The position numbers and the translations under genes were made by a program. A DNA stretch of 64,000 nt from Bugula neritina (taxonomy: Eukaryota > Bryozoa > Gymnolaemata > Cheilostomatida > Bugulidae), in the NCBI GenBank assembly GCA_964035545.1, contig OZ037765.1:2640501-2704500 (forward strand), read 5' to 3'. Positions 1-32,100 of the stretch are shown in pieces (the first letter of the stretch is position 1; the number at the start of each line of letters is the position of its first letter). Below the pieces are notes generated by a model that searched no databases, had not been told where the DNA came from, and saw only the letters and a list, made by a program, of their open reading frames with translations.

Positions 1-3000
1 ATAATGATGATTCACAGCAAAGTTTGACCTTTGGTTGACCTCACATCTTCCAGACTCTCCATGGACAAACTCTGTAAACAGTAAGCGATAACTAATCAAC
101 AGTCACAAAGTTACAAAGACAATAAAATAAGCAAATTTCAAATTGCTCTGTAGTATTATATTGTACAGGATTGAATAATTTACAGTTCAATTTCTTAGGA
201 ATATACAGCTTGTTATGCAAAAATAATTTATGAATCTGATGTAAACATTAAGAAAAAATTTTATCGCGAGGCAACAAAAAGTTACAATTAAATAATAACT
301 GTTGCTTCAGCTTGTGTTCTAGCAGTTAAAGCTTTGGTCCAGTACAACACGAGTCAGACTGCAGTCATCATAAAGCAATTGTGAAATTTGAAGTTGGTTT
401 AAAATATATTCTAAGTATTCCTAATGGTTTATAATGAGACCAGTAATTTTGCTTAATGCTGCTGTGATATAATTTACAAATTTAATAGAACACGCCCAGT
501 TATACAGCACAAAAAGTAGACATAATAAAACTGTATTATACTAGAATCAATTGTCATGTTGATGTGATATATTACTATCATCACTTATATTCTCACCAGG
601 ATGTGGATTAGGGGGAGGGAGGGGTGGAGAGGGAGAGAGAGAATCACGTCCCTTCAACACTCCATTAACCTCTGGTCAAAGATAAACAAAAGTTTTTGAA
701 AGAAGAAAATTGCTCATCATAAATGCGACACATATTGAAAAACCTGCAGCTAAAAAAATAAATACACAACATCAAAATAAAATTTTCAGCTACGAAATTA
801 ATAAACATAATTATATTATTATTAAATATTTTTAAGTGGTTTAGATGGTTATAGCTGTTTTATATTCAAGGTTAACACAGTTCGAAAGTTTAAATATTTA
901 GTTTCATTACTCGTTTATGCAAACTGTACATGAAATAGGAAACAAATGCATATCTGTATTATTCTGCAAATTGTGCTGGGTTGAAGTAACACTATTCACT
1001 ATCCAATAACTGGACCTGTCTTGAATATAATTCACTTTATTTAAAAAAGGTAATAATACTATAAATGTACCTGCTAGTTCAACATGATTAGCTTTGAAGT
1101 TGATGTCTTTATGTTTAATGGTTCTGAAAGTGTATCCAGTATAGGCAATTGCAACAGCGAGCAATACTGTTAAACTGGTAAGCATAAAAATGACAATAGG
1201 CAACACCCAATTTGATGACTCATCCCTGTCTAGTTTGTCTGTTTCACCATCACCTGATCGATTAGATACTTGATTGAGAAATGTACAAGAACATTGTGAT
1301 GAGGGACAACTGGCCGTAACATTGTTTGGATCAATTTCTCCTCCAATGTAATACACAGTTTTGGCTTCTTGCTCAAGTTCCCCATTGGTAACAGAATATA
1401 CATGCTTATATACAGCCTGGTTTCCAGATTTAACAATGTTATAAATTTTATAGTTCACTTTGCCATCACCTGTTGAAAGAAATGGTAAATAAACTTGTGC
1501 ATGGCTGTTTACAAATGTTGGGATCTTTGTTTTATGCAACAGTTCAAGGAAATGCTTTTTTCCAGTAGCATCTCCAAAAAGCCTGGTACAATTTATTGAA
1601 TTAAATTCTTGATAACAATAAGATTCTTTAGTAGCATTTTTAATAGCATATGCTACCACAAGTCCGTTCATGACATTATGTTTACCAACAACATTCTCAA
1701 AATCTAGGTATTCACCATTAAAACCTGGTTGAGACAGGAACTGTGAGTTTAAATCACAGGGCGCATCCTTAGCTACGGCAGGGTGATAACTATTTGGAAG
1801 AAAGCAATTGAAGAATTGCTGCCAAAAATGTATAAAAACTGAGTTGTCCTTATTGTTAGTAGGTTTTTGATTATGCAAAAACTCTTTAAAATAGTTTTTT
1901 CCTTTTCTCGTCCATGTGTACAAATTATCTTTCAACGAAAAAGTTAGCGACCCATAAACAAAATCTTGAAATCCATCAATGACATCAAGACGATTGCCCC
2001 AAGTTTCACCTCCAATTAAAATGATTCCTCTGGCTTTCCAGTCCGGAACGTGTTTTGAAATTTTTTTTATCAAGTTCCTAATAAATATGTTTTCTGCAAA
2101 AATAATAATGGGCCGAAGCAGCTTGTTGGTTCTAGCTAATCTGTTTATATTGAGAGCCATCGCTTGTAATTCGTCGTTTGAATTCTGAGCTGCCATTCGA
2201 AATGAAATACAAACTCTATTTGCTTTAGCATGCTTTTCTATCATTTGAGCACCGGTTTTACCATAGACAGTTTTGTCATGAATCAAACCAGTGTTGTTCC
2301 AACCATTCTCTAAAATGAGCTTAATGATAAACTTTGCCTGTTCTTCGTCATTAGGCACATTTCGGAGAAAAGTTGGGTGCCAAAGACGGTCACTCAACCA
2401 TGTGCTCGTGCTTTGGGAAGAAATTTGAGGAATGTTGTACAGACTTAAATAAGCTTGGAGAACAATAGAGACCCCACTTGATGTGTCTCCTAGAAAGACC
2501 ACAAAGTCATTGGGGTCAACATGGTGTTCGTTACCCTGAGGGTCACTGAGAACTGCGGAACTCCCAGACTTAAAAATGCTGTTTAGGATTTTATGAGAAC
2601 CAAGGATACCGTCGCAGGTATCAATAAATAATGTACTAAAGTCAATGTCAGTTATGTTTTTTATCTGTTGCACAGCGTAATAGAATGACTGCATAGTAAC
2701 AAAACCATTGATTGACACATCGGGGCCACAACTGTGCATGCCTTCTTTTACACTTACTCGGGATGTGTAGCCAATGATGTATTTAGACTTGCCTCGAATA
2801 TAAATGTAGGGATCTCTGTCCTTTGTGCAATGGGCACAATTTGTCTTGCATCTAAAACCGCTGTTCTCTGGCAGAAGACTTATTGGATGCTCATAATACT
2901 GCCACGTACGATTATAAAAATAAGTTCCCAAAACTTCATAATTCCAGTTAGTTGCTAATGCAAGTTGAAATGCCGGTTCATGGTTGTTGTTGACAATATC

Positions 3001-6000
3001 TCCATTGCTCTTGAATCTGGCTTCTACTGTTTGATTTGCTACTTTAGTTTTTATGTCCAAATGCTGAATTTGATCAAATATTTCTGAGTAAAACAAATCA
3101 GTATTACTCAAAATCTCACACGCTCCCGATACATTGCCACAATGCTTACTGTGCGTGTATTTAAAGGCTGCTAGGAAACTTACAACTGCTTCTATCATCT
3201 GCTGACCAAAGTCTGTTTCATTTTCAAAATCACAAGTGCCTGCTGGAGCACACTGCTTCTGAAAGTCAGCTATCATTTTATCAATACTTTGTAAACCACT
3301 TTGACTACCTTGGCGGCGGTGCCTAACATACTCCTTCAGCTGATGATTGGGTTTACTGTGTGGAACAATAGTCAGAAGAGTTGGTTTGTTTATTTTGTTG
3401 TTACGAGACAATCTAGACAATACTTCTGTTGAGCTACCAATTTCATCAGATACCAGAAACACCTTCTGGGCAGCAGCAAGCGTTAGGTCTTCCAAGTATG
3501 AGTCAAGGATTTCCAAGGCTACAATTCGAGTTGAGTCAAATCATTTTCACTCATTACAAAGTAAAAAGAAAAAATATTTTAGCTTTTAGCAAAATCAAAT
3601 TAAATTGAAAAATCATTGGTGGACACAGGCACACACCTCATGTGCACATGCTAATTTTAAAGACAAAAACTTGAATATGTCTCTATTAGAAACAGAATTA
3701 CATTGCACCATACAAACTTACCTCAAAACTTATGTGCACACAGCATCTTAACTAATCTAGTATGTAACTCAGTGTACTTTTATTCAATTACTTACAAAAT
3801 TAAATCAATAGTTTAAGCTTATATTAAGGCAACTTACCTGTATACTTTTGCCCAAAGTAAATAATGCCTTCTGCATTGTTGTAAGTAATTTCTCTGGCAA
3901 TACCCTGGTAGTAAGATTTCCTGTCCGGAGGGCTCACATCTACTTGAACTTTCCCCGAGAAGCAAATACCCTTGGACTCGCCGTATGCCTGTATAGCTGC
4001 AGCGCTACTCCTACCATACTCATTATCAGTAAACACCAGCAAAAAGTAGGACCAAGCCATGTCTATTGCTGCATCTACTATAGCCTAAAATAAAAATAAT
4101 AAAAATATCAAAATCAGTTGCGTTTGATAAATATAAACAGACAAACGCTTTTAAGCGAGTGCAAAAGTCACATAACTAAGTAAAAAAAAGTAACTGAGTA
4201 AAGATAGTAACAAAGCCAATAACTATTAGAAAAAGATCATCACTTAAAAACTCTCTACTGCATTATAAAGTACTTTATATAGTTCTCAAGAATATGGGTG
4301 TACCCAAAACCTACCCTGCATTGAAGATCATCTGTGGTGGAGGTACGAAAGAGAGTGTGATATCTACTCTTATCATTTAGCTCAGCAAGGGTTGCAGAAG
4401 GGGTTATCAGTGGCACCCTCGTATCGTTAAGAAACTGAGCTACATGCATTGCATTAGAACTTAGACTAGGTCCCAAGAACCCTGAAATATAAACTCGAGT
4501 GTGAGCAATATCTGTATAGCTTTAAAGAATTCTCTACATGGATAATGTATTACTATGAGGCTAACCTTGATATAAAGGATTAGAAAGTGGGTCTTCCTAA
4601 AAATAAATTCAATTTATAGTACAAAGATTTACTACGAGTAGTATAACAATCATATGTTAAAACCTAGTCTAAACTTGTGAGGAAATTGTATAATTCTCTT
4701 TCAAGATATAGAAATTTCATACACAGTGCCAAGGAAAAATAACTAATTGAAATAAAATGCTTCATTCAACAATAGATAATACAATAGAGTACGCATGATA
4801 TATTATAGGCCTACTAAAGTTGAATGATCAAGTAACAATTGCTGTTGCAACCAACAATGCACGTGAGCCAATCAGAAATGCTTTTTTACTACTTGTATGC
4901 TGTGATGTCTAAACCATAGTAGTACATTAGATTCTGTATAGTTTATGAAGATTTACAACAAACTAATTTAATTTCAATTTATTCTTACATAATACTTGCT
5001 GCTTTCAGCATAAATTTTAGTATTACACAAACTATGTTTAGAAACCTTTGAGTAAAATAGACTGCTATCCACAAAAGTTTACCGTTTTGCTATCTTTCAA
5101 ATCTACAAACCAAAGCTAATTGTACTTTCTATTTTCTCAAATTGATACTAGAAGAGACAATCCATATTACTAAAGCTGTTGATGGCTTTGTTCTATGGTC
5201 TATGCTTTAGAGTTTAGTATATATAAGTAAAAAATCAGCTGCCAACTTTAAGCTTTGCTGGATAATAATAATAATGTGGTATTTTATAGAGTTATCTTCT
5301 CAATACCCATTCTTATAATTATTCACATTAAATAGGGATTCTACGCCCCCTTAATTTTGGTTCACTTTTGCTTACTCATTGCAAATTGGTCTGAACTAAC
5401 TGACATTTCCGAATTTCGGCCGATTGTTCTAGACTCCCTTTGTTTGACCAGTATAAAAGAAGGCCCATTTTAAGCTTCCATTTAGTTGAAGATTGGAGCT
5501 CACACTGGAAGGAACTCTACTACATAATAAATCTCACCACACAAGACTCTCTTATCTCTTATCACTTGCAAGGAGTTATGTTCTCTGCCTGATTATATTC
5601 AATAACCCACAGGTTACTACAATAATTATTCATAGCACAGCCCTCAGTTATTCGCCTCTATTATCAGCAAATGAAATAAAAAACTGACATTTCACTTTTC
5701 AGCACACACAATACAATGCCACGCATGGTTGAAAGCATAAGCCATGCTTACGAAGACATCTATATTTGCTTTACTAATTCATGCAGTATTCTATTACGAA
5801 GCTACTGAAAATATTCAAGTTTGACTGTAATAGTTTTTTAATTACCAAGCAACAGAGAGTTTTCATTCTCAGGAGTGGATAAGCTATGAGGGGTAGATAA
5901 GCTGTCAGGGGTGGATAAGCTGTCAGGGGTGGATAAGCTGTCAGGGGTAGATAAGCTGTCAGAAGCGCTGCTCAAACAAATCTGCTTGTTTGTCCACAAG

Positions 6001-9000
6001 GAAATGGGAATATTCAGTGCTGACTGTCTCACTGCCAGAGTTTTGTTCTTGCATATGTTCTCTATCACCAGGTCTAAACATATATGTCACTGTGTAACAT
6101 AGATGTATATACTGTCACTGTGTAATATAGACATATATATGTCACTGTGTAATATAGACATATACTGTCCCTGTATAATATAAACATGTATACTGTCACT
6201 CTTTAATATAAACATATATACCAACACTGTGTAATATAGACATGTATACTGTCACTGTGTAATATAAACATATATACTGTCACTGTATAATATAGACATA
6301 TATACTGTCACTGTATAATATAGACATGTATACTGTCACTGTATAATATAAACATATAAACTGTATGCTAAATAATATAGAAATAAATGTATACTATCAC
6401 TATGTAACATATAAGACATATAAACTATCACTGCAGTGATATAGTGGCAGTTTATATGTCTATATTAGACACGTCTAATATAGACATATAAACTGCCACT
6501 ATATAATAAAGACATATATGCTATCATTGTATAATATAGACATATACTGAAAACTGTCACTGTATAATATAGATATATAACCAACACAGTTATAATAGGT
6601 TGTAATTTACAACAAATGTGTAATTTACAATAGAAAGGTAGGTGATAAACTATAGACAGTAGCAGCACTGCAAATTACTCTTAAATCTTGAAAAGAAGCA
6701 TCAGTAGGTGGAGGTAATCTTCAAAGGAAGCTGTACAAGGAAATTTATATTTCCAAAGATTACAGTAATGATTAATTGACAGAACTTATTCCTAGACATG
6801 CAAAGAACTAACATCTATGCTGATCAACGAAAGTAGGATAATAGTTAGCTTGTACTACAACAGGGAGACAGGTTTTGATGACTGAACTTTAAGTTTACAG
6901 TTATTGCCTGTTCTAAGAACCAGCTGCTGTAAACATAGTAAACAGTGATGCTTGTTAGAAAGAAAATAATGAAATTGTTAGAAAGATCAAAAATTTTTAT
7001 AAAATCATATTATCTAGAAATTATTGTAAAAAACTACAAAATAAAATATTAGGAAGTTGTCTTTGAATCATCGTATTATCTTAACATATGTAAGGCTATA
7101 GGATGTGTTACCATTGTACTGTAAAAGTATGGAAATTGCCTGGTAACAATAGTTTGCAGTAGCTGGTGAATTCCCTTAGCTTGCTCAAGGATCACAGATT
7201 ACCATTTTAATATTAAGCAAATGTAAGTCACACCCTTTGATATACAATGAAACAATTGGAATTGCTTAGGAAAGTTTACCTATCCCATATCTTTTACCAT
7301 TTGTCAACAAACAGTTTCTTTATTTAAATAAATATCATGTAATCCTAAGCTTGCTTTAATACTTCCTTGTTAAACATTGCAAGCGTTTTCAGTCAGAAAT
7401 GGAATACAATTTTGTAAAACACAATTTTCCAAATCAGCATCCTTGATATTCTCTATAAGTAAGGCAATATAACTGCCTTTATTTTTAAACTAATGATCCA
7501 TCGAAGGCAATACATAACCATTGAAGCAATAACTTGAAAGAATTCAAGACTATTACAATATTGCTATAATTACTAGTAGTTGCATTATGTTGTATATTAG
7601 GTACTTGAATAAAGCTACTTAATACAGATGTACACATGTTACAACCTTTCTTTTATTTGAAACCATTACCATCTGATCATTATTTTTATACTTATTTCAG
7701 TTATTAAATCGAAAGAGGTTCAGCTCATAATGAAATAGAAAGCTAGAATATTTTCAAAATATATTCAATGAGTGAAATAAAAATTTTTACTAGTGGGAGC
7801 TTCAATTGGAATATAATTTGCATATATTTGTGAATATTTGTCAACGAAATATTTACCAAATGTTGTATAATAACCTATTGTGAAGAAATCCCCTTCAAGA
7901 TGTATGCTAAAACACCGAGACTGTTCATATTAATAAGTAAAGTCAAAGTCTTCATAGTTTTTCTTCATAATATACAGCTGCCAGGAGTAAGAAGGTTATT
8001 TGATTTGGTTAGTAATCTCTAGAAAATGTTATTGATCATACTGCAATCATGTTATTCTACTTCTCAGTGCAAAGTTGCTGACTGCACTTTATTTTTTATC
8101 CAATTTTTTAATGCCTGAGAGATTATGACTCGTGTCTAGTTTTTCTCTAAAGAGTGAAGAGCAATCTTTTATATACAGTAGAAGCTGAAATCTCTCTAAG
8201 TTAAATATTTCTGTATACATGTAACAAAATATGTGAAAGAGTAGCAGTTTTAGAACCTAAAGTATTACACATAGGTAAGACAAAAAGAATTATGTAATTT
8301 CTTTGTTGTGCATAGACTGCTATCAGTTCTGTAAAGATATCTAGAAATGCCCACCCTGGTTGATGATAACAAAGGAAACTCTGTAGTCTATGATATATAG
8401 TCCTCACTGTTAACAGTTGGTAAGGCAGTTGTATATGGAATGGACTGTTATAATGAAAGAACTACATAATATTATGGTGTGCTATAAATGATACACATTT
8501 ATGCTAGGCTGTAGTTTATGTCAAGTTACAATCACTGCAGAAGATGATCCAATGACGTCTGCTACTGCAGAAGATGATCCAATGACGTTTGCTACTGCAG
8601 AAGATGATGCAATGACGTCTGTTACTGCAGAAGATGAGTTCTGATGAAGTGACGTCTGCTAATGTATCATGACTCACCGTAAGTGATGCCAGGCACTGCC
8701 AGCTCTGTCTGGTTACTATTGACTAAACTCAAGACATACTCTGCTGCCAGAGCTAGAGACAGCGCTGAGGGATTTACGTCAGCTGATGGTGCACAGGTTG
8801 CTGTTGGGTTTAACTCTAGTAAAGCTACTAAATGAACTCTATCAGTTTGAGAATCTGAAACAGGAAAAAAAGTAAATTATAGAAAATATGTCACGCCATT
8901 TATTGTGGCAGTAATCAGTTATTGGAAGCTTGTTAAACAGTCAAATTTTCTTATAACCACAAAATGCATACTTTTCTTTACACCAGCAAGAGTTCCACAT

Positions 9001-9600
9001 GGCTTGGAGCGGTGCCTGATTACGTAAAAGTGTAGACTAGACCAAAACTTCTATCTACTGAGCTATGCTCATCATTTCGATAACCCGATCTTTTAAAGAT
9101 GTAATCTTTTCAAAAAAGCACTTTTCACAAATGTATAAACGCTTTATCTACCAAACTATACTGGCTCTGGTTTAAATTTTTAAATCGCAAGAGATTGTTC
9201 ATGGCTGATGATGCCACATTAAAGTGGAGCATTAAACTATAGTTTTTAATAATTTTATATTTATAATATCTAAAATTAAACAATTACAGTTTTACTGAAG
9301 AGATAATTATATTTATCAATGTGAATGCATTTTGTCAATTAGTTACTGTTTATTTAAAAAAGCATAAAAATAGCTTAGATGTAAAATAATATTTTGTGTC
9401 ATTTCCTAGTAATAAGCATTCCTTATCAAAATGTGGTAAATAAACATCAATATCTGGTCAGATTAATATTACCAGTAGAATAGTAAAGACATAAATTACA
9501 AACCTTTACAGATCGCAGCTTCAGTGCCTTCAACAGTTGAGACTACGATGATTACTAGTATGTGGATACTAATAGAAAGAGTGTTACAAGTTTGCAGCAT
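1..9600 (-). CDS. Double Venus-flytrap single-pass receptor, paralog A (3' end beyond left edge)
   Basis: Exons (minus strand): 9600-9504, 8854-8678, 6073-5846, 4481-4315, 4084-3838, 3518-1071, 671-597 and 71-1 (open at the edge); 1170 codons so far, with phases agreeing at every junction. Residues 1-27 form a hydrophobic signal peptide. Residues ~36-530 are a first mGluR/ANF-receptor-type ligand-binding domain ending in a short Cys motif (CKTNCAHC). Residues ~552-1056 are a second complete flytrap, with GDTSS, the IPQIS..STSTWLSD segment, VPNDEEQA and TVYGKTG. A short CPSSQCSC cluster follows, then one membrane helix at ~1076-1101 and a cytoplasmic tail whose exon 7 is Ser/Pro-rich (SPSPPLPPPNPHPG). 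There is no 7TM region. Expected role: cell-surface receptor for a small ligand, probably an amino-acid-like molecule (inference). A kinase or cyclase domain beyond the left edge cannot be excluded. Exon 3 carries an in-frame minisatellite. Confidence 0.85.
5270..5650 (+). mobile_element. Possible solo LTR or stray TATA promoter in receptor A intron 3
   Basis: A TATA box (CCAGTATAAAAGAAGGCCC, ~5448-5466) is followed about 30 bp later by an initiator-like TCCATTTAG and ~60 bp further by AATAAA (~5526). The surrounding GC content is above the local average. Promoter plus polyadenylation signal in a few hundred bases is the layout of an LTR. Neither clear TG..CA ends nor a target duplication could be fixed, and no second copy occurs in the window. 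An enhancer or a lone promoter remains possible. Confidence 0.3.
5871..5961 (-). repeat. In-frame coding minisatellite in receptor A exon 3
   Basis: Five 18-bp units encode SDSLSTP/HSLSTP repeats inside the first flytrap. Paralog B has unrelated, shorter sequence at this point (ETEQCLHSSDVEVDN). The insertion sits just before the NSLLLG motif, the place where mGluR ligand-binding domains carry a disordered loop. Confidence 0.9.
6083..6590. repeat. AT-rich minisatellite beside receptor A exon 3 acceptor
   Basis: About 13 degenerate units of ~32-34 bp built on TATAGACATATATACTGTCACTGTGTAA. The array starts within ~10 bp of the exon 3 3' splice site (6074), and its units resemble the sequence of that splice site. 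Confidence 0.85.
6600..8530. other. Receptor A intron 2 remainder
   Basis: AT-rich intron sequence. No exon, repeat or element supported. Confidence 0.6.
8535..8665. repeat. 30-bp minisatellite next to receptor A exon 2 donor
   Basis: About four units of CTGCAGAAGATGATSCAATG + ACGTCTGCTA, ending ~12 bp from the exon 2 5' splice site. Each unit carries a TGACGTC (CRE half) motif. The same array occurs at the equivalent place in paralog B. Confidence 0.9.
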
Positions 9601-10300
9601 TTTCTCAGCTATTAGCATAGCTACCCAACTATGTTACTTACGTGTAACAAAGTGTCTATAAGCAGTGTGATCATCAAATGGTTAGCAATTCACAGAGGGA
9701 ATTATATGGCTCATGCATGATTGGTTAAATATAAATATAAACATACTTTACATATTTTTTCACTTCATACAAAGACAGGCCCCTAAAAAGCTTTACAGCA
9801 ACTTTGTGTCTCAAATTAAACTCTTTTTTTGTGAAAGCAACCCAGCTGCTTTAAAACTATTAATTTGTGAAAAATAGTAAATAGAAGAAATAAATTAAAT
9901 CATTTTGTTTATATCAAGATTTTAACTACCCAGGGATTTTGTGATGATAGGTTAATACAACCTAGACATAGCTTTAATAACAGCATCAAAGGATGGCATA
10001 TAATTGTTTGTAAAACCTCAAAGTTACCAGATGCCTTGTTGAAGTTCTCTTTATTGTAAACTTTCACTTAATTAAGTAAGTAATTTATGCTAAGTTTAAA
10101 TAGTATGGATTAGTGAAGTTCATAAGTTTAGACTGAGAGTTTAAAGCTATCAGCACCGATCTTGTGTCACCCCATTTCACCATCCTGTAAAATCATGCCT
10201 CTAGCTCCTAATTAATACTAAATATTGATGCTTGTGCTTCTTTTTAATTAATTCTGTTCGCTTGCCTAATGCAACAATCTTTGCATAATACTGTTATAAA

Positions 10301-10380
10301 ACTTTTGCCCCCCACTTGAATCCGAACTCAAGACCTCAGGCTTGCAAGCAGGCGTGCTAACAATTACACCACAGGGACCT
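10301..10380 (-). mobile_element. tRNA-derived SINE-like head
   Basis: On the minus strand the segment has a tRNA-like A box (GGTGTAATTGTTAGCAC), the core CGCCTGCTTGCAAGCCTGAG and a B box (GAGTTCGGATTC). The anticodon arm does not pair correctly, so it is not a functional tRNA gene. Near-identical cores occur at 16524-16600 and 16862-16945, which makes this a dispersed family. It sits between the two receptor genes. Confidence 0.6.
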
Positions 10381-11487
10381 CTGGCTAACCTTAATCAAGA
10401 AGTTGAGATCATAAGACGTTGAGTAAGTGGCTGTTCAAGTCAGATATAAAAACTTATTAATTATTATTTATTATAGCAGATTAAAAGTCGAACAATTAAT
10501 TTTAGTAAAATGTCTAAATGCTAATTTGTGGAGTATAAAAGTTAAAGCAAGTATACTGCATATAAAACAGTACACACCAAAGGTAACAATGTTACTTATT
10601 GTATCTAAATGTGCTGTGTTCATCATGGAATCCTGATTGATGTTAGTATTCACTTGTCAATACAGAATTTATGCTGCATGGCAAAAGATGGTGCAAGTGT
10701 TGAAATAAGCAGAAGAGTGAAAGTTATTAGACCGTAAAAAACAAGTGCTAATATGTATCTAACGCCTACCTTTGTAATGAATCAACTTTTCTACCCTGAG
10801 GTAATATTTTAACAAGGAAATAAACTTTAGATGCAATTAAACATTAAATGAAAGCACAATAAATCTTAAAGGAGATCATTGCATCACATCAGGCAAACTT
10901 TTAAAACTTATTTTGCTAAATCCAAGGCTTTAATGAGAAACTTAAAACAAGAAATACTTTTATACATTGTATTTTAATATATCACATTTGCACCTTGTTT
11001 GGTATAAGTACATTTTTTAGTTTTAGCTAAACAATACGTTTAAAGCTAATTCCTTACTAAACAGAATTATTGCAACCTAAATTTACCAGTAAAGTGAAAA
11101 AGGACATGTAAAGCCAATTTCCAATTGAAAATTCTATATTATTGGCATTTTGTAAACCTTTTTTCATGAGTTGAATGTGTGGATGCATGGAAAAAGTTGA
11201 AAACTTTTGGCTAAGATGAAGAATGTGACAAAAAGTTATGTTTTAGTCTACACTTCAAACCAAATGCAAAGAACATTTAATAAACTTAGACTGTTGAGAT
11301 TTTTCAATTATTGCACTTGAGTGTAATTTAGTTTTATATTAAGCCTTTTCAAGGATTAAATTGCCTAAAACATAATATTATAATGAGAAATTTGATAGCT
11401 AAAAATTAGAATTTGTTTTTAAATGTGTTATGCTTATTTTACATGTACTTCTAGGTATTCAAAAATTTTTAAAGTTTTAATAATTTT

Positions 11488-11493
11488 TTATTA
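11488..11493 (-). terminator. Polyadenylation signal, receptor B
   Basis: AATAAA on the minus strand, ~370 nt past the TAG at 11860. Confidence 0.5.
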
Positions 11494-11859
11494 TTTTAGA
11501 ACCAAATACCATCAAAAATTAAATTGAAAGAAACTAGCCTAAATTAAATTAGAGTAAATGACACTAGTAATTGAAATAATATACCCTAACATAGTTGAAT
11601 TTTTTTTTAAATCATTTGAAGCATTGTAGTGTAAAAAAAAATACCGAGATTTTACATGCGTGAAGAAGCTGCTACAAAATATTTTATATTCATAAAAAAT
11701 ACTATTACATTAAAATCTGATTGAAGCTTTGTAAATCACCATCTTTAGGTATGTAGATGATTTGTACACATAATTATTTTTAAAACAAGAAAAAACTCAA
11801 ACCAAAAAAACTTGCAAAAACTGTAACTGCTATTACTACTCCTAATCTATTGTCTGTAG

Positions 11860-14800
11860 CTACATCCCTTTGTCCCAGATTTTACTCTCAGACTCTTCCG
11901 TTAATGGAAGCGGTTTGCTTACTGCTGAAATGTTTTCACCACATGGTCTAGAGATATTTAGACTCAGACTATTCTCATCAAAACTCTGCTGCCTTTCGGG
12001 CTCTTCTGGCAGCAAATTAGCATTATTCCCGGCAGAACTCTGCTGCCTTTCGGGCTTTTCTGGCGCCGGGCTTGTCATGCTCGTTTCCTCTATCATCACT
12101 GAATCAAAAATTCCATCAATAATATCTGGTTGGTTTGCAGCATTTGAACATATGTGCTGAGCTGAGTTAGATTGAAGCATGTTTCCTAAAAGGAAGAAAA
12201 TTCAACATCATGATGATAAAAAATCGCACAGTTTTATGAAATAGTAGTGTACCTGTTGTAATAATACATTGCAAAATAATGATATTTATTTTATGTTGCC
12301 TAATTTACAGCAGCTAGATTTAGTATAGTGTTAAACTAATCTGATGAAATCAACTTTTTAAATATTTAGTCAAAAATAAAAGTATATTCTTTTAAACTAA
12401 TTGATTCATGAATCATTAAGCAAAAATTTTGCACATTTAAATGGCGCTTGCATTGTTAAACTAGATTTACCTTTGTGAGAACTAGTCTTCTCGCCCTTAT
12501 TCTTGAGATGAAATGCTTTGTACATAATAACTCCTGCTAATACTAACAAAACAATGACGAGCAAAAAGCAAAATATGAGAAGCTTTGGTATAGCAGCGTC
12601 TCCATTATTTCTCTGATTGCTTTGCAAAGAATTTTCTTTCAAATCTCTACAAACTGCTAAAGAGCAGTCACTGGGAGAACAGAAAGACCGCTGTAAGGCG
12701 CCATTTTTGTAATACGACGGAGATACTAGAGATTTCAAGACTCCATCGGACACCTGGTAAACTTGACGGTAAGTTACTGTTGGCGTTTCACCAGATTGTA
12801 CAAGGTTATACAACTCGTAATTTATCTGCCCTTCTCCTGAAGGAAGAAATGGCGAGTACAATTTGGCATGACTGCCTGCCTTTACTGGGACTTTTGTTTC
12901 TTTCAAAAGGCGAACGAATGTTGCTTTACCTTCATCTGTAGTAAAAAGTTTAGCACAGTCTGTCATATTCGAACAGAACTGTTCTCCGTATTTTGCCTCA
13001 CGAATAGCATATGCAGTGGAAAGTCCAGCTGTCATAATATGTTTTGCTTTCCCACCTTCAAGCTCATTACCATCAAAAACCTCTGTCAGTGAGTTGTATG
13101 GTGGAATACACGGCTCACTGCTAGGATAATTTTTCTCAATTCTACAATTGAATGTCTTTTGCCAGAAGTTAATAAAGTAGGGATCTTTTCTACGAGTGTC
13201 TGGTGACTGTCTTTCTATAAACTTTCTGAACTGATTTATGTTACTACTGTCTGTCCAATTATAAACATTCTGAGCTAACGATATGGAGATGGTGCCTTGA
13301 AACAAATTACTTGTGCGTTTGATTATTTCCTTGTTGTTACTCCACGTATCACTAGCAATAAAAATGTTCCCTCGAATGCCCCAACTTGTATCAATTGTTT
13401 GGATAGATTCTAAAATGGAATATAGCTTGGATTGTTCTGCAAATAATATCAGTGGCCTGGGGAGTGCGTTATCTGCCCCTTTTGACTTTAACTTAAAAGC
13501 TAATCTCTTAGCAAAATCTTCATAAGCAATCTCTATTTTATGCGAAAAATCTATACAAATTCCTTGTTCAGCAGCGTATAGCTCTATTCCTTCGGCGCCT
13601 GTTTTACCATAGGCGGTGTCTGTATAAATAAGGCCAATTGAAGTCCAGTTACTCTTAACAGCTAACTCTATCATAAACTTTGCTTGAGCACTATCCTCTG
13701 GCACAGTTCTTAGAAATGAAGGGTTACGGTCTTTGTCAGTTAGAAGCGTGCTTGTACTCCCATATGATATCTGCTGTATTCCAAACGGAGCTAAAAATGA
13801 TTGAATGATCATTGAGATGTCACTAGACGTGTCTCCAATGAATACAACAATATGGTCAGGTGGGTAGACATGTTTAGTACCGTCACTTTCCAACAAATGT
13901 ATTTGGTTATCAGCTTGGAAAATACTACTCATTGTACTCAAGGTTAGCAGTTTAGCATAGCATGTGTCTAAATAGAGAGTGCTAAAATCTATGCCAGTAA
14001 TAGCTCTCATTTTTTCAACTGCATAGTAAAATGCTTGCATCCGAATGAAGAATGTTGAATCGATGTCGTCACGACATTTTGCAGAGTCATTTGTGCTTCC
14101 ATGAAGCGGTCCGGATCCAGCGATAATAAAGGTTGATGAATGTTTGATAAAAACATAAGGAGACCGCTTCACAATATGCTGACTTGGATATTGAACGCAC
14201 CGCGAGTTAATGTTTGGTAAAATGTTTTGAGAAGTCATGTTCCAGGATCGAGAATGCTCATTATCTTCGTAGGTGCCAATATGATGGTCTACATTTAAAT
14301 CATACAGTTCATATAAAGGTGAAGACACATATTCAAACTCATCGCCGGTCATTTGAAACCGCTTGAAGGAATCCTGATTATTGGTTGTAAATATTTTAGA
14401 GCTGTTGCGGATACTGTTGTGTAAGCGTGAGTAGAACAGTGCGTAGTTGCAGAGCAAGGAACACCCGGTGTCATTGCGTTGTGCTACTTCCTTAAAATTT
14501 GTGAGCAGCTCTACTACAGTTTGCATCACGTTAGTCGATTCTGCGTTGTTCCATAAACTTTCTTCCCCTTCTTGACAATACCTTTTGAATCTGTTCATCA
14601 TATTGTTGACAAACACTAAACCACTCTTTCTACCAGAGTACCGATCAGTCACATGCTTTACAAAACTTTGAGAAATTGGTGCTGTTGGAGTCAACACAGC
14701 AAGTATGTGGAGTTTAGACAACGCTTTTGGATATCTCGTCTTTCTGTCTTCGTTTATTGTCAATTTCTCAGAAGTCAAAAACAGTTTTGAAACAAATGCT

Positions 14801-17800
14801 GTATCATAGTTGATGTATTCTTGGCTCACCAATAGTTGAAAGTACATTTCAGCCATATTGGAACCTAAAAATCAAATAGAATGTAGTAAACATTTTAATG
14901 CGCATGCCCAATAACAAAGTATATTTACCTAATTGGCAAACAAAGACTTTAAAGTTAATTGACACAATCAAAATGTTTATAGACCTGCAACTTGATAGCC
15001 TCATTTCAGAGTTGCTACGGTCATGATTTCTAACTGTAAAAATCTTGATGACTGTGCTTAGATCTAATCACACAGCAAACAAAATAATTCCTTTCATTTA
15101 CTTTTTTGTATAATCCCAAATGACTATTTGTTTTATTACCACAAACACTGGAATAGGTTTGAAAACCAACTATAATGCATAATTCAAAATAGAGGAACAT
15201 ATGCTTAAAAGCAATTACTCATACAACTATAAACATTTCTAAAACGATATTTGTTTATAATAAAAATTAAAACAGCTGTTCACTAAGAAATATGAAATGA
15301 TTTTGATAAATTTAGCAATAGCCAAATTTCTGAACTGGGAGAGTAAAAAGCTGTAATCTAAAAGTGTACCAGTTTCGAGGTCTCCAAAGTAGATAGAGAC
15401 ATTTGCATGGTGTTTGGCAATATCTTTTGCCACAACTCTGTAGTACGACTGAGGGTCAGCTGGATTTGTCTGAACTTTGAACTTTTCTGCAAAGCATATG
15501 CCTCGCTCATTTCCGTATTCTTCAATCGCTGCTGCTCCTTGAACACCAACGTCGTCATCAGAGTAAAGGAGCAAGATGTAAGACCAACCTTGCTTTATGG
15601 CTGCATCAACTAGAGCCTAAAATAGCAAACATACTATATAAATACATTAAGAATCTTGAACTCAAACCTACACACCCTAGTTGAAGCTCAAGACTGAAAT
15701 AATATTAAATTTCTCCAAACAGCAAACTACTCCAAGCTGAATTTATATAATAAACCATAAATCTACCTTACATATATATAACAGTTAGGCATAAAAATTT
15801 GCAACTCTCTGCTTAAATTTAAAATAGTACAGATTTTTGTACCCTACAGATTGGTTTAAACCATGCTTTATGTTTAAGCTTGCATGCAATGTTTTTACAA
15901 CCAACAGTACCAAACACCTGCACACACCTGGCCTTTGGTGATATCAGAAGGAACTGTTCTAAACACTGTGCTGTACTTGCTCGTGTCTGTCAATCCTGCA
16001 AGTGTTGCTGTGGGTGACAAGATGGGAATTCTTGTGTTATTAAGAAATTGGCCAACTGCCACAACATTACTATTCTCAAGGGGTCCAACAAAACCTTCAA
16101 TAAATAAATAAAAGTCATTTATTTGAATTAAAGAATGAAATAGATGATATACTGCAAACTTTTAGCATTTCATTAACATAAGAGATTTGCCAATATATCA
16201 ATGTTAGGTGAGTTTAGCATTACTATTTAAGCTTTTACTAAACAAATATTACTGAAATCAAAATGGTGGTTACTATAACATTAAAGTACCAAAACTTTTT
16301 ACTATATAGGTATACATGAAATCTAGAAGTCAGCGAAGTTATGTAAAATTTATTAATAAAATTTTCAACAAATTCAAGGTTGAAATCTAAATACCAAACT
16401 TCATAAAAACTAAACTAAAAAAGTTGCTAAGAAATGATGAAAAATTAAATAGAAAGCAGGATGTTTGGAAACCACGGTGCTATATTAATTATCACATCAT
16501 TGTTTATGTAGTGTTGAGTTTACCCAGCGGCCCAGTGGTGTGATGGTTAGCACACTTGCTTGCAAGCCAGAGGTCTAGGGTTCGATTCTCAGTGGGAGTA
16601 ATTATTTTTTAGTTTAAATTGTGCAATCACAGGGTATATTGCTTCTTCTTAGAATCCTTAGCTTACTGTACAGTATTTACTTAGTCAATACCTCTAATAT
16701 AGCTACAGCTCTATAACTGTGATGAAAATCAGAAATTCGATTCCTAATTGTTGATTATTAGTAAAGTCTACCTGATTCCTACTTAAACATGATGGTAAAC
16801 ACCTTTATTTGAAGATGTAGCTGAGAACGGGGAACTTAAATTGTCCCTGTAGTGTTGACTCTACTCAGTGGTCGCAGTGATGTAATGGTTAGTGTGCCTG
16901 CTTGCAAACCAGAGGTCTGAGGTTCGAATCCTACTTGAGGCAAAAGTTTTTATAACCTCTATTACTAACTTGTGGCATTTACATCACAATTTTGCACAGA
17001 AGCTTTTCAGCCAAACCATCTATTACACCAGCTATCATGAGTAGATGTTTAGTGATTTATTAGAGCAGAAGCTCTGTATAAGGCAGCAACCAGCGCCATT
17101 TCAGTGTTGTGTATCAACATGAATGATGTTGATGCAGAAACGAGATTCATTATCGCAGTATATAGCAATGGAGTAATATTATATTTTCCACTGACACATA
17201 CCTAACTTAAATAGCTGAGATTGTAATAATGTAGAGTATATTCCTTTAGCAAGTAACAACCTGGTGTTACAGGATTGAGAGTTTGAAAGTTATAGCTTCC
17301 AGTAATGTTTCCGCTCGCTCATATAATAAACAAAATGGCAGACAATGTAATAATACAGAGTATTAGTACCTAGTAGTAGAGAGTTGTCTACTTCTACATC
17401 TGATGAATGTAAGCATTGCTCCGTCTCAGCGCTATTCCATATTGTGGCAGGCAAGTGTTGGGCGGCGGACCTTATAGCCATACTTTGGTTGTTGGTTTGA
17501 ATGCCAAAAAATTCAATACCTACAATCAACCATTCTTTTTAGGATAGAGTGAATATGAATGAGAAAATGTTTTATTCAGTGTTATTTAGAGTCTATTCAA
17601 GTCTAACTAATTTCTTTTAGTATTTATAGCCAGATAACTTGCATGCATGACTTTGATTCAGTAGTAATACTACATGTGTTATGTAGTAGTACTAGTATTA
17701 GTAGGCCTTATAGTAAGTTCCACTGCTCTTAATATACATTAACTATATAATAGTTACAATGTTAAAGTAAAAATATACATATTTGGCATATATTATATCA

Positions 17801-18958
17801 TAGAAAAAATAGGAAACTTAAAATATCACAATTTTGTTATTCAAATAAGTTTGGATCATTTTGAAAATAAAAACTTATAAAATACAGTCTCATGGCTGGT
17901 ATTCTGTAAATCTATGAAGTGTTTTCAAAAGCATCTACTAATAACATAGTAGTGATGTCATATATAATGACTGCCTTAAGATTTGGTATATGTAATATAT
18001 TATATAATATATATGTATGAATAACAGACATAAATTAAATTATATAGAGTACAGTATGAATTGCCAAACAGCATGATAGATGATGCATTGAAAGAAATTA
18101 TTGATGAATTAATTTTATAACTAGATAAAAGTTCAAGGCTAGACTGTGATCTAGGAATGGGTTTACAAAATATTAAATAAAACACATATGCAATCAACGA
18201 TTAATAACCCCAAGCCAAGTGAAAGTAGAGTTGACATGAGCTCTACTGCAATGACGTCTGCTACTGCAGAAGATGATGCAATGACGTCTGCTACTGCAGA
18301 AGATGAGTTCTGATGCAATGACGTCTGCTACTGCAGAAGATGATGCAGTGACGTCTGCTACTGCAGAAGATGATGCAGTGACGTCTGCTAATGTATCATG
18401 ACTCACCGTAAGTGATGCCAGGCACTGCCAGCTCTGTCTGGTTACTATTGACTAAACTCAAGACATACTCTGCTGCCAGAGCTAGAGCCAGCGCTGAGGG
18501 ATTCACGTCAGCTGATGGTGCGCAGGTTTCTGTTGGGTCCAACTCTAGTAAAGCTACTAAATGAACTTTCTTTGAACCAAAATCTGAAAGTTATAAACAA
18601 AATTATTACAGCGAGTACAAGCTTCTTCATTATAGGTGCATTATAAGCTCAGCTAACTTCTTGAAGTAAAAACTTTAAGGGGAAAATTAGCTCAGTTACA
18701 TTATTTCTAAAACTGAAGCCTAAGCTGGTTTATAGAGCATGATGAAAACTAATACACATGCTCTTCAAACCTCAAACCAAGTTACATTGCCTAAAAGATG
18801 GACTTTACTATAACACTTGCCATGCTTGATTTATTTGTACCGTGAAGCAAGTTTATAGCAATTATGTGTATAATCTCACCTGTACACGATCCATTCACTG
18901 CTTGCAGGGAACTGACCAAAGTGATGAGATGGATAACTGAGCAAATGAATTTCTCCAT
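11860..18958 (-). CDS. Double Venus-flytrap single-pass receptor, paralog B (complete)
   Basis: Exons (minus): 18958-18880, 18583-18407, 17519-17370, 16094-15928, 15616-15370, 14864-12471 and 12185-11860 (TAG). Together they make 3540 nt = 1179 aa plus stop. Exons 2, 4 and 5 match paralog A in length (177, 167, 247 nt) and all phases agree, so the two arose by tandem duplication. Order: signal peptide (1-22), first flytrap (~28-500), second flytrap (~515-1000) with GDTSS, ISYGSTSTLLTDK, VPEDSAQA, TAYGKTG and ASDTW, one membrane helix at ~1032-1056, then a 123-residue tail. The tail has a duplicated EKPERQQS/EEPERQQS motif and no recognisable enzyme domain. The first flytrap has lost the mGluR ligand tyrosine (DDDVGVQG where A has NEYGRSS). 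The 3' splice site of exon 4 (TTGAAG) is weak. The gene lies head-to-tail with paralog A, whose start is 2.3 kb away. Signalling partner unknown; a co-receptor or ligand-binding subunit is possible. Confidence 0.87.
16524..16600 (+). mobile_element. tRNA-derived SINE-like head
   Basis: Same family as the copy at 10301-10380: GTGTGATGGTTAGCACAC, then CTTGCTTGCAAGCCAGAGG, then B box GGGTTCGATTCTC. It lies in receptor B intron 3. Similarity to the next copy begins ~20 bp upstream (GTAGTGTTGA), so the element is longer than the tRNA-like part. Confidence 0.6.
16862..16945 (+). mobile_element. tRNA-derived SINE-like head
   Basis: Third copy of the family: GATGTAATGGTTAGTGTGCC, TGCTTGCAAACCAGAGGTC, B box GAGGTTCGAATCC, then a GGCAAAAG end. 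It lies 340 bp downstream of the second copy in the same orientation in the same intron. Confidence 0.6.
18246..18392. repeat. 30-bp minisatellite next to receptor B exon 2 donor
   Basis: About five units of the same 30-bp sequence as 8535-8665. The spacing to the exon 2 donor is identical and the intervening bases are the same (ATGTATCATGACTCACC). Confidence 0.9.
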
Positions 18959-19827: not shown

Positions 19828-26865
<7,038 letters not shown>

Positions 26866-29139: not shown

Positions 29140-32100
29140 TTAATCACTATCATCCAGTTTGGGTATTTTTGTCTTTTTCCTGCCTTTACTTGAGGATGTT
29201 TCTGTACCACTACTGCTGCTGCTAAAATATTCAATAAAACACTTGTGATACATGACAACTGTTTATACAGGGCCCTATTATTAGCAACTCAACAAACAGA
29301 TATCTACTATCTACTAACCCATCATCTGTAAGCATTGATGCCTGCACTGAACCGTTGATACGAGATCTGGCCGTATTGGCTGCAGATCTCTTGAGTCTGG
29401 AGGTAGCAAGAGAAGTTGTATCCAACACAGTGCTGTCTATTTCCTCAGCGACAGCATCAACATCGCCTGCAGTCTCTTTTGCTGCTGCTTCAACTTCCAC
29501 ATTGTCATCTGCAATACAGGAAACATATTTGTGTGTGTGCGTGAGTGTGTGTGTGCATGTGTGTGAAAATAATATACCCATGTAAGACTGTGTACGAGTA
29601 CATAATAGCTAATAGCTTGATTGCATAAAAGGCAAAGAAAGTCATTTTTTGCTATAATCTGTATTTGCTGGACCAGAAAGAATTACATGTTTGACCAAAA
29701 TGTGTGAAGTCATGATCAATTTTGTGTTGCAGTATATGATACACCTTTGGAAGTGTGTGAGAAAGCTCTATAACAACAGTTAAACTTTAGTCTAGATACT
29801 AATTAGCTTGAATATTTGAAATTAGGACAAAGTTTGTGGCTTCTAGTAGTTACTGGTGGATAAGATGGAGCAATATATAAACTCTAAGTATAAATAAGCC
29901 AAAACATACCATACTTAGACATACATACACTACACACACACTGAATATATTGTACTATGTTTGCATATTACACGAATGAACTCACCTGCAGTACTATCAA
30001 TAGAGACATGTTTTGACTTCAGTTCATCGACCTTCACCTTGAACTTGTCAATACTCTTCAGAGATACCTTGTCTTTTACGACCTGAAAAAACATAGTTTA
30101 GTTAATGGCCAGTAAGTTCATGCTAGCGGAATAGTCTATTAATTAGTTGTCTGTCATCCATAAATGTGTCTACACAATATATTTTCTACAACCAACTAAC
30201 TACCAGCTCAACTATGAATCATTAGAAACGTCTGCTGAGGTAAATAGTATCTGATGAGAAGTTGTCCTATCTACATTTACCTGGTATTACTTAGTTTACC
30301 TTATTCTACTGGCACTTATGTTACCTAATTCTTAGAGTGGCGGAATCTTGCTTGAGCATGACATAACCTTGGATCAAAAAATAAAAATCTCGACAGGAAA
30401 TATGGTCTAGAATTTACCCAGTAAATGCCGTGGGTTTGAATCCCAGTGGTGCCAGTAATAATATCCCAAAAAGCAGCCGATCATAACTGCTCCTGTATAA
30501 AGACATACACTGTTCACTTAACAAAATTGATCACCATCAGTTCCCACAGATGGAGATGTTAACCATACTTGAGTTCACAGTCTAAGCTATTGGGAGGGTG
30601 AAGGGGCGTACCTGAGTGAGTTGTATAGAAAGGTTGCTAAGATCTCTGGCTAATAGCTCGTTATCCTGACTCAGCTGTAGCATTGTGAGAGCCTTAGCAA
30701 GTACGACAACTCCATACATGTTATCTCTCTCGATAATCTCATTACATATCTTCACAGCAAGAGAGTCATGTGACGTCATGCCAGACAGCGCGCTCTGGTC
30801 AGCAACTTTCTTGACCTGCGTGGGATCCGTTAGCTGCACGAGTAGCTCCACGACGTTTGATTCGTCGATGTCAGACAAGGGACTAGTGGCTGGTGCGTCA
30901 AATATCACCTGCAGTGTTGGTATGAAGGCTTCTTCCACTTGCACCTGGTTGTCCCTACAAGAAAGGTGAAGTGACAGTTTGTGTTTATAAGGTGAAGGAC
31001 AAAAATTCCTCCTGGATAAATCAGAATTCGGTTTTCAAGATAATATTGTGACAGAAGCTAGAAACGCCAGAAACACTCACTTTTTTGTTAGACAAATAAA
31101 AATAAAATAAATATAAGAAAATCTAAGTAATCGAAAATATTCTGAATCACTGATCTATTAGATCAAACAATGAAGAAAGTCCCTTTTCATATACTATATA
31201 CAAAGAGCAGACAACTGACAATAGTCAGAGAATACCATTCACAATCTCTCAGTAGTTACCTGCTGCTGAACGCGTATACAGGGAAGAAAACTCCAAGACA
31301 GTGTCTCAGTCTGACATCCTCCTCGGTGACCGGGTTGTACCAGAGAATGATGAGTCGGGAGAGCAGCTTACTCGAGACGATTCTGGTGGTGAGCAGTAGT
31401 TTGGACAGCCCTTCCGCACACAGAGTGCGGATAGTAGAGCTGTCGTCCTCCAGGAAGTTGACGAGCATCTGAATCAGGTCGTTGGCAGATCTATGGATAT
31501 CCAAAACTTCAGCAAAATATATAACATCTGATAGATAACCTCACAGAAACTCAGTGAAACTGCTTAAGAGACCGGGTGTGGCATAGACTTAATCAAAAAA
31601 TGAAATGAAAAACAACCTTGTGAAACTCTTGGTATAATTTACTCTGGGCAAAGCAAAATACAAAGAATAGGAGCAATAAGCTAGCTATCCCAGTATACAT
31701 GGCATGGGCAGAGGTTCAATTTTAGTGCTGAAATCATACCATGGCACTCAACAGTTGATTGTTATAAGCTTGGCTTCTTACAAAAAGAGGCCATAGAAAA
31801 TTGGGTGCAAACCCTTGAAAATTGTCAATTACTACTTGCAATAAATAAAAGGCATTGAAAAACCCAAATGGTCTGATTTTACTACGAGATCAGCACTATA
31901 AATATAATACAATACAATAGTGCAATGTAGAGCGGGATGCAGTAAAAGTAATTCCGCTATTTTCAACTCTTATATAAAAATGCAACACCCAAAACACACA
32001 CAGGGCGAGACACCTGTTGTATAGAACTAACCTGTAGACCTGAGACTCAGTGCTGTCTGTTGACGTATCCCCCTCCTTAGTGAAGACATCATTGTCTGGA

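Follow-up and report, generated by a model that had tools for sequence, protein, structure and literature searches.

Two tandem genes of the bryozoan Bugula neritina encode putative single-pass receptors with two mGluR-like flytraps on each chain

What kind of receptor carries two ligand-binding flytraps in series on one chain and neither a seven-helix bundle nor an enzyme behind them? This question is raised by a stretch of 64,000 nucleotides of the Bugula neritina genome (C1:2640501-2704500, in an assembly of 215.8 Mb and 295 contigs; the whole stretch is called the window below), whose minus strand carries at positions 1-18958 two paralogous genes in tandem, named here A and B. Each encodes a hydrophobic leader, two Venus-flytrap domains (VFT1 and VFT2) of the metabotropic glutamate receptor (mGluR) type, one transmembrane (TM) helix and a tail. 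Work on how a closing flytrap produces a signal has dealt mostly with dimers that have a seven-transmembrane (7TM) or enzyme output, and a natural two-flytrap family with neither of these separates sensing from the machinery of the G-protein-coupled receptors (GPCRs). In the answer preferred here, to which a probability of about 0.5 is given, A and B would be type I membrane receptors built from class C (mGluR-like) ectodomains, combining amino-acid-binding and modulating flytraps with an enzyme-free signalling tail.

The gene models were obtained by deducing the splicing of A, B and a third, intact gene C from the genomic sequence. Introns of A and B follow the GT-AG rule throughout, and the exon end phases of the two genes are identical (1,1,1,0,1,1). 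The seven exons of B run from 18958 to 11860 on the minus strand and encode 1179 amino acids, with the stop inside the window. The pair had been placed at 1-18958, but A is not wholly in the window: six exons of A (1193 amino acids) occupy 9600 to 1071 on the minus strand, and exon 7, starting at 71, extends into the left flank (L013) by 146 bases. In B, exon 1 (18880-18958; minus strand, as all features of both genes) holds the ATG and the hydrophobic leader, called from the open reading frame, the GT donor and hydropathy. VFT1 starts with its lobe 1 in exon 2 (18407-18583) and continues through exon 3 (17370-17519), which contains a loop cysteine, exon 4 (15928-16094; lobe 1, matched by PF01094) and exon 5 (15370-15616; passing into lobe 2, again matched by PF01094). 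The large exon 6 (12471-14864) encodes the remaining VFT1, a linker, the whole of the mGluR-like VFT2 (12688-14163), a cysteine-bearing stalk and the TM helix (approximately 12523-12591, from hydropathy), the coordinates of VFT2 and the helix being taken by hand from the exon table. Exon 7 (11860-12185) provides the cytosolic tail and the stop, without a catalytic domain. In A the same order is found: ATG and leader, again by hydropathy, in exon 1 (9504-9600), the VFT1 start in exon 2 (8678-8854), exon 3 (5846-6073), in which the loop cysteine is directly followed by five in-frame 18-nucleotide repeats (DSLSTP-like) in a VFT1 loop, lobe 1 with its PF01094 match in exon 4 (4315-4481), VFT1 passing into lobe 2 in exon 5 (3838-4084), and in exon 6 (1071-3518) the remaining VFT1, a cysteine linker, VFT2 (about 1315-2814, by hand), the stalk and the TM helix (about 1141-1209, by hand). 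The first part of exon 7 (1-71) begins the cytosolic tail.

Pfam found two ANF_receptor (PF01094) stretches per protein in A, B and C; the whole-protein E-values are 1.8e-53 for A and 3.3e-57 for B. The second flytrap is clearly complete, and that of B has mGluR3 as its best PDB match (E 1.1e-31 over 460 residues). The best PDB matches of B VFT1 (T1R3 and mGluR5, about 1e-15) cover only the first half of the domain, and single-exon Pfam matches to VFT1 of A and B end approximately halfway along the profile. The best PF01094 stretch of gene C is its VFT1, at profile positions 3-310 of 353, which strengthens the case for completeness; in addition, the three VFT1 sequences, aligned by hhalign over their C-terminal half, run collinear with VFT2 (E 6e-4 and a probability of 28%, at a score of 35 compared with 19 for the best of 20 column shuffles). 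We take VFT1 as complete but diverged. It can be said that the original prediction of two complete domains stands for VFT2, while for VFT1 the match is a half in A and B and fuller in C. Leader and membrane helix are called from hydropathy (windows above 1.6), by which A and B each have one leader and one TM; the leader of C is less hydrophobic and stays below this threshold. Behind the helix follow about 95 residues in A and about 124 in B. The tandem pair with leader, two flytraps, one membrane helix and short tail was in this way confirmed for A and B by deduced splicing, Pfam and hydropathy. As to the origin of the double domain, a recent internal duplication of one flytrap was considered and rejected, VFT1 and VFT2 being just 19% identical in an hhalign alignment of 214 columns (probability 97%). 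To the VFT2 profile the genome's own mGluR scores 123 bits, more than any separate VFT1 exon (41 bits or less), so that this divergence and these scores point either to fusion or to an old duplication.

The same Pfam run on the spliced proteins of A, B and C returned no 7tm_3, kinase or cyclase domain and no cysteine-rich-domain family at E<=10; it had been predicted that no 7TM, kinase or cyclase follows in B, and this also holds for A and C. Exon 7 of all three genes encodes a hydrophilic tail and then a stop. Hidden 7TM exons were not seen by eye in the minus-strand frames of positions 1-1100 and 9600-12600 of the window, and a genome-wide search for 7tm_3 gave 15 matches, some being fragments of a single gene. 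None lies close to A, B, C, the more distant gene D or the cluster on C5 described below, in a search that runs exon by exon and that a finely split 7TM could escape. One candidate remnant of class C TM1-TM2 was followed in A through an alternative acceptor at about 760, which opens a hydrophobic GAAGFSICV... segment, slightly similar to class C TM2, together with an FKANHVEL stretch resembling the first intracellular loop. It was rejected: the 73-residue piece had no PDB match at E<=10 and Pfam gave no 7tm_3. The acceptor at 71 leads to a hydrophilic tail resembling those of B and C with the Pfam result unchanged, and this model was kept.

A and B are, by sequence comparison, members of a multi-gene family of putative two-flytrap receptors. 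Among 32 genome-wide PF01094 matches, 13 fall in loci of two-flytrap type (by our assignment two in A, three in B, three in C, one in D and four in the C5 cluster), spread over no fewer than four loci, of which two are tandem; the size of the family is a lower bound. Gene C (C2:5.80 Mb) is intact, with seven exons in the phases of A and B and 1158 residues, and the exon 6 proteins of A, B and C are pairwise 30-32% identical. For gene D (C3:3.64 Mb), VFT1 pieces and a cysteine linker were recognised by eye; it also has a TM helix, extra introns and a VFT2 that reaches 295 bits against the A-C profile of this domain. The E cluster (C5, about 2.03-2.05 Mb; L027, L030, L031) appears to consist of more distant two-flytrap, single-TM genes in tandem. 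E1 contains two PF01094 pieces, one matching profile positions 109-188 and, downstream of it, one matching 74-118, which implies two flytraps in series. By eye a cysteine linker separates the two; more VFT2 pieces follow in sequence, as does a TM helix, and the VFT1 label comes from this order, its VFT1-profile scores being weak (about 10 bits). E2 has VFT2 and a TM helix, with a further PF01094 match upstream at the VFT1-like position 107-201. The presumed tail exons of E1 and E2 contain, by eye, tyrosines and a PVP(M/A)PR stretch, a PxxxPR pattern which we take to be of the SH3-binding type. Related flytrap gene(s) of C5-like type were noticed at C2:15.67 Mb (L028), and tandem flytrap genes outside the two-flytrap family, resembling natriuretic peptide receptors (NPRs) by eye and with PF01094 on one exon, at C9:4.80-4.83 Mb (L019-L021). 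Ordinary class C receptors also occur in this genome, for example at C1:29.37 Mb, with a 7TM match about 13 kb further on.

Such a collection could be thought to consist of recently truncated class C GPCRs or of functionless genes in decay. Gene D has an in-frame stop directly after the TM helix (L017, 5020-5080), two of its VFT1 exons could not be joined in frame by eye, and A shows the in-frame repeat expansion mentioned above; D may be decaying or may contain assembly errors, and decay of some family members is possible. For the family in general this explanation is very improbable, the open frames of A, B and C extending over 1158-1193 codons with all splice sites and identical phases despite the low identity in exon 6, and ligand pockets being kept beyond chance in VFT1 of A, VFT2 of B and VFT1 of C, as detailed further on.

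A different history is visible in exon 2, where 8534-8838 of A and 18263-18567 of B share 92% identity over nearly all of the exon and part of intron 2, including intronic 30-nucleotide repeats. The other six exons show 43-58% DNA identity, and outside the tract and its repeats blastn of A against B gives one short match of 56 bases in exon 5. The tract, within which exon 2 of both genes lies almost wholly, is best explained by recent gene conversion. Together with the number of loci and their tandem arrangement, this contrast between one exon and the rest might indicate chemosensory or self-recognition receptors peculiar to this lineage, whose diversity arose by duplication and gene conversion. 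Only a single conversion tract was seen, however, and some of the amino-acid pockets are conserved rather than variable, for which reasons this explanation is considered improbable.

It has to be asked how far the layout resembles systems already described. Class C GPCRs carry a cysteine-rich domain (CRD) after the flytrap, with the exception of those of the GABA-B type. With mGluRs (mGluR3, mGluR5) the three proteins A, B and C share the flytrap sequence, most intradomain cysteines, the pocket residues and the lobe-2 cysteine, but they have two flytraps per chain, only a few cysteines in place of the CRD, and no 7TM. NPR-C has one flytrap and responds to a peptide ligand, in contrast to A and B. 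The original prediction stated that natriuretic peptide receptors add a kinase-homology/cyclase region and so overlooked NPR-C, which crosses the membrane once, lacks a cyclase and ends in a tail of 37 residues, yet is able to activate Gi (PMC3268021). A and B share with it the single pass, the large ectodomain and the short enzyme-free tail, and differ in the flytrap type: no NPR occurs among the best 60 of 107 PDB matches of B VFT2 or the best 60 of 92 of B VFT1, which are mGluR, CaSR and T1R.

Flytraps of mGluR type that have lost the 7TM are represented by SmGBP of Schistosoma, a truncated mGluR and membrane-associated binder, and by a splice form of human mGluR3 for which anchoring by one C-terminal helix is predicted (both PMC3206071). 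Both share with A and B an mGluR-like binding domain without 7TM, but in each the flytrap is single; the only hydrophobic segment of SmGBP is N-terminal, and the mGluR3 form is a splice variant rather than a gene family. Venus kinase receptors, a recombinant member of which is activated by L-arginine, are likewise single-pass flytrap receptors of invertebrates (PMC2680970), but they combine one GABA-B-like flytrap with a tyrosine kinase; in A, B and C Pfam finds no tyrosine kinase after the TM helix and exon 7 ends in a stop. Two flytraps (in most members) and one TM per chain are described for the receptor adenylate cyclases of Trypanosoma brucei (PMC6027212); these form a protist family with an adenylate cyclase tail, and Pfam finds no cyclase domain after the TM helix of A, B or C. 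Tandem flytraps on a membrane protein are also known in the BvgS/EvgS sensor kinases, which are bacterial and have a histidine kinase. Among the papers listed in searches of the open-licence PMC literature, which omits most subscription papers, none described a two-flytrap single-pass animal receptor family. The claim that no named family has this layout held among these descriptions, where the two-flytrap precedents are non-animal and the animal precedents have a single flytrap, and the novelty of the layout in animals is likely.

If these proteins are receptors, the pockets should indicate what they bind. In mGlu1 the alpha-amino-acid group of the ligand is held by S165, T188, D208, Y236 and D318, as given in PMC2680970; the mGluR3 equivalents are S151, T174, D194, Y222 and D301, of which all but D194 are named in PMC3206071. 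The corresponding letters were read from one MAFFT alignment of seven flytraps (both of A, B and C, and VFT2 of D). At these five sites VFT1 of A has STDYD and its VFT2 STDYE, VFT1 of B has NTDVE and its VFT2 STDYD, VFT1 of C has STDYD and its VFT2 ATTYA, VFT2 of D has STDYK, and the genome's own mGluR has STDYE. The pocket is complete in three of the seven (A VFT1, B VFT2, C VFT1), retains four of five residues in VFT2 of A and D, and two of five in VFT1 of B and VFT2 of C. At an overall identity to mGluR3 of 18-24% (19-24% in the three with complete pockets), five out of five is improbable by chance (hypergeometric P 0.0002-0.0008, dependent on the alignment), while the two-of-five pockets are unremarkable (P 0.22-0.26). 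Since the genome's own mGluR has a glutamate at the last site, this residue is probably tolerated there. Plausible pockets would then be present in both flytraps of A, in VFT2 only of B, and in VFT1 only of C. This pattern suggests amino-acid ligands, and one chain may pair a binding flytrap with an altered one. Equivalents of R68 and K389 are both matched in B VFT2, and because the K389 match is found there only, a glutamate-like ligand is suggested for VFT2 of B alone.

The cysteines bear on how closure of such pockets might be transmitted. In mGluR2 a disulfide between Cys234, situated at the helix F base, and Cys518 of the CRD links the pocket to the output (PMC12394075). Its counterpart, C240 in mGluR3, has an equivalent in seven of the seven flytraps aligned (both of A-C, and VFT2 of D). 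The CRD itself is gone; after each flytrap there is a short segment with a few cysteines, those between VFT2 and the TM helix being identified by reading. We infer that such cysteine linkers could have taken over the role of the CRD. A second site concerns pairing of chains: Cys140 of mGlu1, in a disordered loop, is proposed as an inter-subunit link (PMC8310541). A, B and C each have a loop cysteine of this type in VFT1, whereas the four VFT2 domains of A-D lack one; the residue is offset from the mGluR3 column in the alignment, as is that of the genome's own mGluR. For A, B and C this suggests dimerisation through VFT1. The earlier idea that two flytraps reproduce the class C dimer on one polypeptide fits the complementary pocket loss, but the VFT1 loop cysteine of A, B and C points to dimers of whole chains as well.

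The same loop cysteine, located at the proposed mGlu1 inter-subunit bond site (PMC8310541), could be used for pairing with a foreign partner, and genuine class C GPCRs are present in the genome, as the 7tm_3 matches demonstrate. According to this alternative each two-flytrap chain would be an obligate heteromer subunit that modulates the 7TM of a class C GPCR. It is VFT2, however, and not VFT1 that adjoins the membrane, which would create a geometric mismatch with a one-flytrap GPCR; this alternative is regarded as unlikely, a little less so than the recognition repertoire considered above.

In the GABA-B receptor GB2 plays the regulatory partner to GB1. The preferred reading, in which A, B and their relatives are enzyme-free receptors for amino acids, transfers a comparable division of labour to one chain. 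The layout, as the sequence shows, is VFT1, a short cysteine linker, VFT2, a short cysteine stalk, one TM helix and a short tail. At least one flytrap per chain would bind an alpha-amino acid or a close derivative, and the other, with its damaged pocket in B and C, would act as regulatory partner. Closure would be relayed mechanically, the lobe-2 cysteine of each flytrap being tied to the cysteine linker that follows and replaces the mGluR CRD. Chains of the A-C type would dimerise through VFT1, possibly by the loop cysteine, and from a tail without an enzyme either adaptor recruitment or internalisation of the bound ligand would be expected.

A number of observations weigh against this reading. 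VFT2 of A and VFT2 of D each lack one pocket residue, and K389 is matched in one flytrap out of seven. The linker after VFT1 has three cysteines in A and C and one in B. The loop cysteine does not follow a family-wide rule: it was not seen by eye in VFT1 of D, and in both E1 and E2 the C140-type loop of VFT2 contains two cysteines, which weakens the step of dimerisation through VFT1; given these exceptions in D and E, the step is proposed for no chains other than A, B and C. A common signalling motif was not found in the tails, with two tyrosines each in A and C and none in B, and exon 7 is poorly conserved (21-24% identity between pairs of A, B and C). An AlphaFold2 model of exon 6 built from a two-row alignment has too low a confidence (predicted local distance difference test 34.9) to show packing or disulfides. 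The stop in D belongs to the same side of the account.

Because the tails contain nothing that proves signalling, the main rival is a scavenger or decoy, which would bind amino-acid ligands and internalise or buffer them without signalling, as in clearance by NPR-C or binding by SmGBP, the two flytraps serving capacity. The lack of an effector domain and the short, poorly conserved tails agree with it, as do presumably endocytic YxxI-like motifs (YSDI in the tail of A and YETI in that of C, both noticed by eye) and the PxxxPR-like stretches in the presumed tails of E1 and E2. A precedent exists in SmGBP, membrane-associated, mGluR-like and without 7TM (PMC3206071). On the other hand, one damaged pocket in B and in C would waste capacity, the tail of B has no tyrosine, and the cysteine that couples closure is kept in all seven flytraps aligned; simple clearance is thus judged rather unlikely, although it is less so than the other rivals.

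A bolder extension of the preferred reading can be formulated, and it is held as speculative, somewhat more probable than clearance and well below the reading it extends. A and B would represent a new class of animal receptors with a flytrap pair per polypeptide, a sensor and a modulator, and would thereby encode the asymmetric class C dimer in cis, with signalling through a single TM helix by an adaptor-recruiting tail and with a chemosensory or recognition expansion in this lineage. Through their complementary pocket losses the chains supply ready-made cis "heterodimers", suited to experiments on binding and modulating domains. Were such genes present in other phyla, an unnamed class of amino-acid receptors in animals would be at hand.

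The remainder of the window contains genes of other kinds, all on the minus strand. A histone deacetylase gene lies at 20290-25531 (a weak one-exon Pfam match below the family cut-off, the rest by eye), a condensin subunit G-like gene at 30582-38554 (PF12719, Cnd3, on one exon; extent by eye), and a single-exon galactose-3-O-sulfotransferase gene at 48105-49493 (PF06990, E 3.4e-56). At 16500-16640 and 16880-16950, also on the minus strand, tRNA-like repeats near a CCTCTGG box were noticed by eye, which are possibly tRNA-derived short interspersed elements.

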